NCBI GenBank assembly: GCA_001509375.1
Contig: LGFT01000005.1
Location: 1 to 51,479 of the forward strand
Source of the DNA: Methanothrix harundinacea
Lineage (GTDB): Archaea; Halobacteriota; Methanosarcinia; Methanotrichales; Methanotrichaceae
Direction: 5' to 3'
DNA: 51,479 bases
Shown: in pieces, positions 14,205 to 43,920 of the stretch
How positions within the stretch are numbered: position 1 is the stretch's first letter
Layout of the letters: each line of letters begins with the position of its first letter
The notes under the pieces: generated by a model
What the model was told of the DNA's origin: nothing
The model's input: the letters and a program-made list of their open reading frames with translations, nothing else
Database searches by the model: none
Made by a program: the position numbers and the translations under genes

Positions 14205-15332
14205 TCAGATGTCCTCGAGGACGATGGCCGCGATATCGTCGCCGACCGCCGAGGTCGTGGCGCTTCCCCCCATGTCATATGTTCTGACCTTTCCCCTCTT
14301 GACGTTCGTCTCGATGGCCCCGATCACGTCCTCGGCGGCGGCCCCTTCCCCCAAGTGCTCCAGGAGCATAGCCCCAGCCCAGATGGTGGCGATGGGGTTG
14401 ACCTTGTTCATCCCCCTGTACTTGGGGGCGCTTCCGTGGATCGGCTCGAACATGCTGGTGCCCTCGGGGTTGATGTTGGCTCCGGGCGCGAGCCCGAGGC
14501 CTCCCTGGATCATGGCTCCGAGGTCGGTGATGATGTCGCCGAACATGTTGGGGGCGACGACGACGTCGAACCACTCCGGATTTTTGACAAACCACATCGT
14601 GATGGCGTCGACGAAGTTGAAGTCGGTTTCCACCTCTGGATACTGGCCAGAAACCCTCTCAAACTCCTCTCTCCAGAAGCCATAGATGTCGGAGAGGACG
14701 TTAGCCTTATCGACGCTGGAGAGATGCTTTCTCCTCTCCATGGCGAGGTCGAAGGCGTACTTGATCACCCTCTGCGTCCCTTCCCTCGAGATCATCCCTA
14801 TCTGGTAGGCGATCTCGTCGCTGTCCGACTCCACGTCCAGGCCGAACTTGACGTCGTAAAGGGTCCTCTTCACCTCGAATTCGTCGCGGCTCTTCCCGGA
14901 TCTCGCCCGGCCACCGATCCCGATGTAGAAATCCTCGGTGTTCTCCCGGACAACGACGAAGTCGATATCCTTCGGCCCCTTGTCTTTGAGGGGGGTCCAG
15001 ATCCCCTCCAGGAGCTTGACGGGCCGGAGGTTGACGTACTGATCGAAGTAGAACCGCATGGCAAGGAGGACGCCTTTCTCCAGGACCCCGGGCTTGACCC
15101 GCGGGTCGCCTATGGAGCCGAGGTAGATCGCCCTGTACTGGGAGAGGTCTTTGAGGACGTCCTCGGTGACGAGCTCTCCGGTCTCAAGGTAGTGGTCCGC
15201 CCCAAGGGAGTACGTTGTCCACTCGATATCAAAACCGTGCTTTTCTGCCGCGGCCTCTGCGACCTTCATTCCCTCAGCCACGATCTCAGGTCCTATCCCA
15301 TCGCCGGGAATAACGGGAACGTTGTACTTCAA
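14205..15332 (-). CDS. leuB: 3-isopropylmalate dehydrogenase family (beta-decarboxylating dehydrogenase)
   Basis: A 375-residue enzyme of the isopropylmalate/isocitrate dehydrogenase family. Visible are the N-terminal [18 protein letters not shown], the substrate-binding region with [16 protein letters not shown], and the metal/NAD region [26 protein letters not shown] followed by [13 protein letters not shown]. It overlaps leuD by 4 bases (TTGA) and starts with TTG 15332 after GGTGAAG. Together they would act in leucine biosynthesis. Methanogens also have a paralogous homoisocitrate dehydrogenase (AksF) for coenzyme B, and sequence alone does not settle the substrate; the LeuD partner favours leucine. 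Confidence 0.85.
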
Positions 15333-15817
15333 GCAGACTTCACCATCCTCTTAGTGTAACTGACGAGCCCCCCCGTCTCCACGATCTCCTGGAGGAAGGG
15401 CGGCAGGGGCGTGGTCCTATAAGACTCGCCGCGGGACCGGTTGTATACGATCCCACGATCGGCATCGATCTCGATGGAATCCCCATCCCGGATCCTCTCC
15501 ACGTCGGCGCAGACAAACAAAGGCAGGCCGATGTTGATGGCGTTCCTGAAGAATATCCGGGCGAAGGACTTGGCGACGACGGCCTTCACCCCCGCGCCCT
15601 TGAGGCCGAGGGGCGCGTGCTCCCGCGAGGAGCCGCATCCGAAGTTCGTTCCCGCCACCACAAAGTCGCCGGCCCGGACCTGCCCGGCGAACTCGGGGCG
15701 CACGCCCTCGAAGACGTGTTTTGCGAGCCCCTCGGGATCGTTGATCACCAGGTAGCGTCCGGGTATGATCGCGTCGGTGTCGATATCATCTTTGAACTTC
15801 CAAGCTCTGCCTGCCAA
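15329..15817 (-). CDS. leuD: 3-isopropylmalate dehydratase small subunit
   Basis: A 162-residue small (swivel) subunit of the aconitase-type hydro-lyase. It shows [14 protein letters not shown] at the N-terminus and [21 protein letters not shown]. The substrate-specificity loop reads YLVI, closer to isopropylmalate isomerases than to the YLRT reported for homoaconitase. The start is TTG 15817 with a GGGGGAT-type site before it. The large subunit (LeuC) is not nearby. The promoter probably lies at 15861-15874 on the minus strand, where TTAATATAC is present. Confidence 0.88.
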
Positions 15818-41624: not shown

Positions 41625-42350
41625 ATGAGTTTCGATCTCTTCCCCGCCGTCGACCTCCGCGGCGGAAGATGCGTCCAGCTCGTCGGTGGCATCCCCGGAA
41701 CCGAGGTGGTCAGCCTCGACGATCCCCTGGCCCAGGCGGTTCGGTGGGCTGAGATGGGATCTTCGACCTTGCATATCATCGACCTGGACGGGGCGATCCA
41801 GGGAGTCCGGATCAACGGCCCCATACTTCAGAGGATCGTTGAGAGCCTCGACTTATTCGTCCAGGTGGGAGGCGGCGTTAGGAGCCGGGAAGATGCAGAA
41901 TTGATCCTCGACCTCGGCGTCGATCGAGTGATCCTGGGGACGGCGGCCCTCGCCCGACCCGAGATGGTGAAGAACCTTGCGGCAGACTATGGATCCGATC
42001 GAGTTATGGTGGCCCTCGACGTGAGAGGAGGTAAGGTCACCACTGAGGGTTGGCAGAGGGATTTGGAGAAGGGGGCCATCGAGCTCGGCCTCCAATTCCA
42101 GGAGAGGGGGGCAGGCTCTATCCTCTTCACCAACATCGATACCGAAGGAAGGCTCCGGGGGATCGATCCCGAGCCGACCAGAAGGCTCATCGAGGCGGTC
42201 GAGATCCCGGTGGTGGCTGCGGGAGGCGTCTCCACCGTCGAGGACATCCTCGTCCTCCGGGACGTGGGCGCCGCAGGGGCCGTGGTGGGTACGGCGATTT
42301 ACACCGGAAAGCTTGACTTCAAAAAGGCCCTTTCCGCCCTCCGTTCCTGA
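41625..42350 (+). CDS. hisA: HisA: ProFAR isomerase of histidine synthesis
   Basis: A 241-residue TIM barrel. The N-terminal FPAVDLRGGRCVQLVGG has the catalytic Asp, LHIIDLDGAIQG follows, and the second half has VMVALDVRGGKVTTEGW and the phosphate motifs GGVRSRED and AAGGVSTVED. It converts ProFAR to PRFAR. The partner hisB-like gene follows 78 bases downstream on the same strand, an incomplete histidine cluster. The transcript is probably leaderless. Confidence 0.95.
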   Translation: MSFDLFPAVDLRGGRCVQLVGGIPGTEVVSLDDPLAQAVRWAEMGSSTLHIIDLDGAIQGVRINGPILQRIVESLDLFVQVGGGVRSREDAELILDLGVDRVILGTAALARPEMVKNLAADYGSDRVMVALDVRGGKVTTEGWQRDLEKGAIELGLQFQERGAGSILFTNIDTEGRLRGIDPEPTRRLIEAVEIPVVAAGGVSTVEDILVLRDVGAAGAVVGTAIYTGKLDFKKALSALRS

Positions 42351-42428: not shown

Positions 42429-42995
42429 ATGAGGACGGGAGAGGGTATTTCTGAGGTCGGCGGCGCGAGGGCCAGGGTCGATGTGAACGTCGACGGTAAA
42501 GGAGATGGAGATCTCGACTCTGGATCTGGATTCCTCGACCACATGCTTTGCGCCCTCGCGAGAATGAGCGGGATCGACATTCGTGCGAAGGCTGAAGGTG
42601 GGATCTCACCCCAGAGGTCGAGGGCCCTGGGCCTCGCCTTGGGGAAGGCTCTCGCCTTGGCCCTGGGAGAGAAGAGGGGAATAAAAAGGTACGGCTCGGC
42701 GGCGGTCCCCATGGACGAGGCGCTGGCTGAGGTGGCCCTGGACTTCTCCGGAAGGCCTTACCTGGCTATGAAAGGCAAGTTCAAAAACGAGATTATTGGG
42801 GACCTTCCATCCCAGAATGTCAAGACGATCCTCGTGGCCCTGACCGAAGAGGGCCTCCTCACCTTAAACGTCAGGATCGAGGGGGAGAACGACCACCACA
42901 AGGCCGAGAGCGTCTTCAAAGCCCTAGGCCTTGCGCTGAAAGAGGCTAAAAGGGTTGAGGGGACGGAGGTCCTCAGCACCAAGGGCGTCCTGTGA
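42429..42995 (+). CDS. hisB: HisB-like imidazoleglycerol-phosphate dehydratase lacking the first metal motif
   Basis: A 188-residue IGPD-fold protein. Conserved: GFLDHMLCALARMSG, the KRYGSAAVPMDEALAEVALD segment with SGRPYL, and the second metal motif NDHHKAESVFKALGLAL. However, the first metal motif, normally DDHHTVEDxGxALG, reads ISPQRSRALGLALG here, so two His and one Glu are gone, and the usual ARH is ARM. Normal enzymes bind two Mn ions using both motifs. It may be inactive, act with altered chemistry, or coexist with a true HisB elsewhere. Start ATG 42429 has GGTGAT upstream. Confidence 0.8.
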   Translation: MRTGEGISEVGGARARVDVNVDGKGDGDLDSGSGFLDHMLCALARMSGIDIRAKAEGGISPQRSRALGLALGKALALALGEKRGIKRYGSAAVPMDEALAEVALDFSGRPYLAMKGKFKNEIIGDLPSQNVKTILVALTEEGLLTLNVRIEGENDHHKAESVFKALGLALKEAKRVEGTEVLSTKGVL

Positions 42996-43005
42996 TCTTG
43001 TTTTT

Positions 43006-43920
43006 TCACTCGAACTCGATGGTTCCTGGGGGCTTGGGGGTCAGGTCGTAGACGACCCTAGAAACTTCTGGGATCTCACCCGTGATCCTATGGGATATCC
43101 TTCTGAGAACGTCCCAGGATAGCTCCAGAACGTCGGCGGTCATGGCATCCCTCGAGGATACCGCCCTCACCGCGACGACGTAGCCGTATGCCCTGATGTC
43201 CCCCTTAACTCCCGTCGCCTTGCCGAGGATCGCAGCAAAGGCCTGCCAGGGGAGAAAGCTATTCAGCTCCTCCTCGACGATGGCGTTGGCCGCTCTCACG
43301 ACCGCGAGCTTATCTCGCGTCACCTCACCGAGGATTCTGACGGAGAGGCCAGGACCGGGGTAGGGCATCCGCTCGCATATCTCGGTGGGCATGGAGAGGC
43401 CCCGAGCGACTTCACGTACCTCGTCCTTGTAGAGTTCGCGGAGCGGCTCGACGATCCCCTTAAACTCCATCTTGAGGGGAAGGCCCCCGACGTTATGATG
43501 GGACTTGATCCCCCCCTCGGACTCGATCAGGTCGGGGTATATGGTGCCCTGGATCAGGTACTCAGCGCCGACTTGCCTCGCCTCCTCCTCGAAGACCCGG
43601 ATGAATGTCTCTCCCACCACCTTCCTCTTCTCCTCGGGATCGATGACCCCCGCGAGGGCGCTCAAAAATCGGTCCTCGGCGTAGACAGTGATCAGGTTGA
43701 AGTCAGAGAACATTTCGGCGATCTTCTTCGATTCTCCCTGCCGCATCAGCCCGCTGTCCACGTAAACTGGGATAAGCCGGTCTCCGATCGCCTCGCGGGC
43801 CAGAAAGGCGCAGACCGAGCTGTCCACGCCCCCGGAGAGGCCGATGACCGCTCTCCCCTCCACCTGGCGGCGAATCTCTCCTATGGCTTCGTCGATGAAC
43901 TGGGGGACGTTCAGACCCAT
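43006..43920 (-). CDS. guaAB: GMP synthase subunit B (ATP pyrophosphatase)
   Basis: A 304-residue synthetase subunit. The PP-loop [15 protein letters not shown] is near residues 24-38. The dimerisation/XMP part has [22 protein letters not shown] and the C-terminal [13 protein letters not shown]. It adenylates XMP and aminates it using ammonia from subunit A, encoded at 48.8-49.4 kb. The split of GuaA into two polypeptides is normal in euryarchaea. It converges with hisB, with 10 bases between stops. Confidence 0.95.

Follow-up and report, generated by a model that had tools for sequence, protein, structure and literature searches.

The window, by which we mean the whole 51,479-nt stretch of Methanothrix harundinacea DNA that was analysed, contains a gene for a HisB-like protein of 188 amino acids, here called paralogue A (Table 1). 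Its open reading frame is clean, as the initial annotation had described it, running from ATG to TGA with zero internal stops. The same annotation placed hisA upstream, and hisA is indeed found there, on the same strand and 78 nt before A. A gene for the PP-ATPase subunit of GMP synthase converges on A from the other side. Further upstream, between a helicase gene and hisA, is an ORF of 208 amino acids with a signal-like N-terminus and no Pfam match at 0.001.

Paralogue A matches Pfam PF00475 with an expect score of 1.2e-44 over profile positions 2-144 of 144, which corresponds to a full-length imidazoleglycerol-phosphate dehydratase (IGPD). Its PF00475 score of 152.3 bits, and the 105.7 bits of a second copy described below (paralogue B), are both above the curated cut-off of 27. 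Against the NCBIfam HisB equivalogs, A falls short of the cut-off in each of the 13 models listed, its best score being 184.1 versus 231. The IGPD fold of A is predicted with high scores: the AlphaFold2 model (mean pLDDT 93.9, pTM 0.90) superimposes on solved IGPDs with Z about 31 and 1.3 Å over 179-180 residues (for 8QAX, Z 31.1 and 1.3 Å over 179 residues). Named close relatives of A come from Methanothrix harundinacea, Methanothrix sp. and Ca. Methanocrinis natronophilus, and on this basis the family is referred to as Methanotrichaceae.

Table 1. Features of the window and of the locus of paralogue B. Residue equivalences are in Arabidopsis IGPD2 numbering unless marked 6FWH; "rows" are alignment rows of A from Methanotrichaceae.
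Feature	Position	Strand	Basis
ORF, 208 aa	40869-41495	+	signal-like N-terminus
hisA, upstream neighbour of A	41625..42350	+	PF00977 (1e-70); adjoins A in most relatives too
HisB paralogue A, putative half-site IGPD subunit, 188 aa	42429..42995	+	ORF, PF00475, predicted fold
G12, lost catalytic Glu (E21 = 6FWH E14)	42462..42464	+	6FWH map; E in 8/47 rows
H38 = H47, retained metal ligand, chain-A set	42540..42542	+	47/47 rows
I59-R65, site of lost HHxxE motif 1 (H73, H74, E77), chain-A' set	42603..42623	+	H73, H74 in 0/47, E77 in 16/47 rows
R87 = R99, retained phosphate-binding Arg, chain-C set	42687..42689	+	47/47 rows
D96 = D108, retained, chain-A set	42714..42716	+	47/47 rows
R109 = R121, retained phosphate-binding Arg, chain-C set	42753..42755	+	47/47 rows
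T133, site of lost metal ligand H145 (6FWH H138), chain-A' set	42825..42827	+	H in 0/47 rows
H156 H157 ... E160 = H169, H170, E173, retained HHxxE motif 2, chain-A set	42894..42908	+	47/47 rows each
K164 = K177, retained phosphate-binding Lys, chain-A set	42918..42920	+	47/47 rows
S183 ... K185 = S199, K201, retained C-terminal loop, chain-C set	42975..42983	+	46/47 rows each, one gap
GMP synthase PP-ATPase subunit, convergent neighbour	43006..43920	-	PF00958 + PF02540
HisB paralogue B	contig C23, about 15098-15679 (= L104:8099-8680)	+	PF00475
purP-like gene beside B	L104:6907-8040	-	

Known IGPDs are described as homo-24-mers in which every chain bears both HHxxE motifs (PMC6029752, PMC10978614, PMC7284861). 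Their two Mn(II) ions lie at the junction of two chains, and the phosphate of the substrate is held with help from a third. According to PMC6029752, the active sites adjoin two-fold axes and are composite: in the Acanthamoeba enzyme (6FWH), chain A supplies H40, H162, H163, E166, K170, D101 and H48, chain A' supplies H66, H67, E70 and H138, and chain C supplies R92, R114, S191 and K193. The account in PMC10978614 concurs that two chains bind the metals while a third gives the arginines, and adds that in some species loss of the metal yields trimers.

The residues of A were mapped by alignment to 6FWH and are given below in Arabidopsis IGPD2 numbers, as in PMC4509728, unless stated otherwise. 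Of the eight 6FWH metal ligands, A retains four (H40, H162, H163 and E166) and has lost the other four (H66, H67, E70 and H138). The initial annotation had reported that the first metal motif is replaced, and the alignment bears this out: no residue of A aligns with 6FWH H66, while Q62 and R65 stand at the positions of H67 and E70. The metal site is more incomplete than that annotation had noted, with the eighth ligand (T133 at H145), the catalytic E21 and also H55 (M46 in A) missing as well.

Exactly two genes in the source genome carry PF00475, A on contig C73 and B on contig C23. A second HisB, which the initial annotation had suggested looking for, therefore exists, but it is not the canonical copy that was sought; that candidate was rejected, and B is instead a mirror-image half. 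B of the source genome retains GDHHIVED, the third-helix histidine and E21. LDEI replaces LDHM, DDWQK stands at the second HH motif, the R99 position is absent and the protein ends before the C-terminal loop. The losses in B comprise H47, motif 2, R99, D108, R121, K177 and that loop. Mean identity is 27% between A and B, 41% between A and canonical HisB, and 33% between B and canonical HisB.

To determine how widely this arrangement is shared, 50 genomes of Methanotrichaceae, a family of methanogenic archaea that live on acetate, were searched for HisB. Both A and B were found in 44 genomes, A alone in three (G014, G036, G334) and B alone in three (G017, G324, G330); none of the 50 genomes searched yielded a canonical HisB. 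The notion that A is a lone inactive copy was rejected, given B in the source genome and the pair in 44 of 50 family genomes. The initial annotation had asked whether close relatives share the form of A and lack any other HisB: the loss is common to all 47 A rows, but the other HisB is not absent, a complementary copy being present in 44 of the 50 genomes.

The residues are divided between the two paralogues. In the 47 A rows, H47, R99, D108, R121, H169, H170, E173 and K177 are present in all, S199 and K201 in 46, E77 in 16, E21 in eight, and H73, H74 and H145 in none. The B alignment comprises 48 rows from 47 genomes, one of them a C-terminal piece; E21, H73, H74 and E77 occur in 47 of the 47 rows that span them and H145 in 48 of 48, while H47, R99, D108, H170 and K201 occur in none, S199 and H169 in one each, R121 in two, K177 in five and E173 in 32. 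Gaps take the place of H73 in 27 of the 47 A rows and of R99 in 47 of the 48 B rows, and H55 is gone from both paralogues. Both HHxxE motifs are never combined in one chain of A (0/47) or B (0/48), whereas all 54 full-length canonical rows combine them. A wider comparison, using all 47 A rows and 44 of the 48 B rows, considered 39 positions that are near-invariant in the 54 canonical rows: 13 are kept in A only, 11 in B only, six in both and nine partially or in neither (four truncated B rows, namely G329 in two pieces, G333 and G030, were left out, as was L254). When the residues are sorted by the 6FWH chain that supplies them, A has 10 of the 11 chain-A/C residues and 0 of the 4 chain-A' residues, and B has all 4 chain-A' residues but, when a 90% level is applied, none of the 11 from chains A and C; Fisher values for this split are too strong, because neighbours in an HH pair are not independent. 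A and B have thus reciprocally lost residues that come from different chains of one composite site, the chain that supplies E21 being disputed (see below).

A phylum sample of 295 genomes, 12 of them in the family, gave one HisB match in 272 of the 283 non-family genomes, none in 11 and two in 0. All eight ligands are retained in the 54 full-length single-copy rows inspected, and every partition residue is present in 38 of 38 canonical phylum relatives. The suggestion that divergent HisBs commonly shed ligands was rejected: among 17 phylum loci, mostly picked for low scores, the 16 full-length ones keep all eight, and the remaining one is a C-terminal fragment. PMC7284861 reports HHXXE in all 535 of its sequences. 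Two loci with an in-frame TAG (L026 and L027) were left out of the canonical sets; they are the single HisBs of G037 and G039, two genomes from a different family within the class, each with one such codon. If the TAG of L027 (L027:1405-1986, + strand) is read as sense, the product is an ordinary canonical HisB, a hint that TAG may be sense-coded there, perhaps for pyrrolysine. The single-copy HisBs of two genomes of phylum family f8 (L243, L244) keep the metal ligands and have no STKG loop, the S199 and K201 columns being gaps.

Over 36 pairs per paralogue within the genus, the median dN/dS is 0.209 in A and 0.208 in B, indicating that both are under purifying selection. In phylogenetic trees A forms one clade and B another, with support of 100/100 for each. 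The best trees do not join A with B, but topology tests reject neither an A+B clade (p-AU 0.431) nor a grouping of A with canonical relatives (p-AU 0.355), and long branches are in play. A adjoins hisA in most genera, g6 not among them. B was not seen beside his genes in the synteny of relatives, where it often flanks a purP-like gene. Because hisD is present in 50 of 50 family genomes and hisG in 44, and because Ca. Methanocrinis natronophilus Mx, in a culture that was highly purified and not necessarily axenic, is described as having no obligate dependence on yeast extract (PMC10598746), the family appears to be prototrophic for histidine. The genome taken as Mx (G007) gave no hisG match.

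Taken together, the two genes, the division of the active site between them, its invariance throughout the family and the selection acting on both make it very likely that A and B assemble, each as one type of subunit, into a single obligate hetero-oligomeric IGPD with composite active sites. A would give the chain-A residues H47, H169, H170 and E173, with D108 and K177, and, if chain C is also an A subunit, R99, R121, S199 and K201. B would give the chain-A' ligands H73, H74, E77 and H145. The di-Mn site would be incomplete in either protein alone and completed at A/B/A junctions, which could rebuild the whole site save H55. Activity would be lost at the reciprocal B/A sites and the residues there would be free to decay, matching the gap columns at H73 in A and R99 in B.

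The acid-base catalyst E21 is probably supplied by B. We infer from the internal two-fold repeat that E21 corresponds to D108; because D108 on chain A contributes to the metal that A' largely binds, E21 would be expected on chain A'. Against this, a legend in PMC4509728 names Glu21A together with Glu173A, which puts E21 on the A side unless a prime was lost from the text.

Further observations count against a hetero-oligomer of A and B. The genes are unlinked, H55 is missing from both, and six family genomes have only one copy. Of these six, three are 56-78% complete and one 85%; as a scale, hisG is unmatched in six of the same 50 genomes. G017 has no match resembling the hisA of the window, so that the hisA-A stretch is seemingly missing, and G014 is without a close match to purP, the gene that B often adjoins. 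In G036, which is 99% complete, B is absent even so, and the purP gene has no B alongside.

How such subunits might be arranged can be considered in terms of the known cage. If homotypic trimers, A3 and B3, occupied the eight corners of the cube in alternation, the cage would hold 12 A and 12 B chains, and its symmetry would be tetrahedral 23 in place of the octahedral 432 seen in known IGPDs. Every two-fold contact would then pair A with B and contain two di-Mn sites, one live and one dead, for a total of 12 of each kind. Under this proposal a duplication ancestral to Methanotrichaceae would have split a symmetric composite site over two genes, locking both in family-wide. We regard this particular cage and its origin as an evenly balanced proposition.

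The initial annotation had offered a neofunctionalised paralogue, a regulator or another metal arrangement as explanations for A. None of the three fits as well as one enzyme spread over two paralogues. The closest alternative is that A carries out the dehydration by itself, alone or as a homo-oligomer, using an altered metal site, and that B is an allosteric activator or scaffold. A does retain K177, R99, R121, S199, K201 and one metal half-site, and dead-paralogue activators exist, as in trypanosomatid deoxyhypusine synthase (PMC3663545). We nonetheless consider this unlikely, because it leaves unaccounted for the exceptionless conservation in B of E21, H73, H74, E77 and H145, which would be useful only as di-Mn ligands. 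It is very unlikely that A and B left histidine synthesis for two new jobs, as a regulator or another metal enzyme, with another protein making imidazole-acetol phosphate. Their strong divergence from canonical HisB (41% and 33% mean identity) and the position of B apart from his genes would suit such a history, but A adjoins hisA in most genera and retains the substrate-binding residues, hisG and hisD are present, there is no third PF00475 gene, and two functions acquired independently would not leave each copy with the half of a site that the other lacks. A model of separate homo-oligomers, in which A and B would each be partially active through a site with one metal, is highly improbable: while each copy retains three ligands of one metal ion, B is without every residue that holds the substrate phosphate and A is without E21 and H74, so that each lone site misses essential parts, and Arabidopsis IGPD2 is inactivated by the E21Q substitution (PMC4509728). 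The chance that the window gene is a pseudogene or an assembly error, the latter raised in the initial annotation, is negligible, since all 47 A rows, which come from 47 separately assembled genomes (including the 1-2-contig genomes G001, G003, G022 and G023), show the same loss, as do five Methanothrix/Methanocrinis records, and dN/dS is about 0.2.

The proposed two-subunit enzyme resembles HisB/IGPD (PF00475; 6FWH, 4MU0, 8QAX) in fold, sequence family and hisA neighbour, and in an active-site residue set that is complete once A and B are summed. Unlike known IGPDs, the Methanotrichaceae chains have one half-site each, and two genes would be needed. We class the pair as an IGPD variant rather than a regular member of the group, since the two-motif feature is found in neither chain. 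The largely open-access literature searched yielded no earlier description of the A/B pair or of any IGPD that is hetero-oligomeric or encoded by two genes. Other systems offer partial parallels. HisZ is a regulatory protein of a different family and is not known to contribute a catalytic half-site. The HisG(S)-HisZ ATP phosphoribosyltransferase is, in the accounts of PMC9734150 and PMC10795190, also a hetero-oligomeric enzyme of histidine biosynthesis. In trypanosomatid deoxyhypusine synthase, PMC3663545 describes two paralogues, each impaired or inactive by itself, whose heterotetramer is active, a paralogue pair acting as one enzyme as proposed here. That enzyme has another fold, and the title of the paper speaks of allosteric activation, in contrast to the reciprocal split of metal ligands proposed for A and B.

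HisB is regarded as a homo-oligomer whose chains all carry both metal motifs. If the two-subunit reading is correct, Methanotrichaceae, with half-site copies only, would represent a natural experiment in intersubunit complementation. The evolution of obligate heteromers via reciprocal loss would become directly testable, and A and B would provide a clean system in which to dissect the di-Mn site by subunit. There is also a warning for annotation: A scores below every HisB equivalog cut-off listed and B is more diverged, yet together they are probably the organism's HisB.

The surroundings of B include a further feature. The purP-like gene lies head to head with B, an arrangement common to many family genomes. 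Histidine and purine synthesis are connected via AICAR, and a promoter region that B and the purP-like gene may share could be of interest for this reason.
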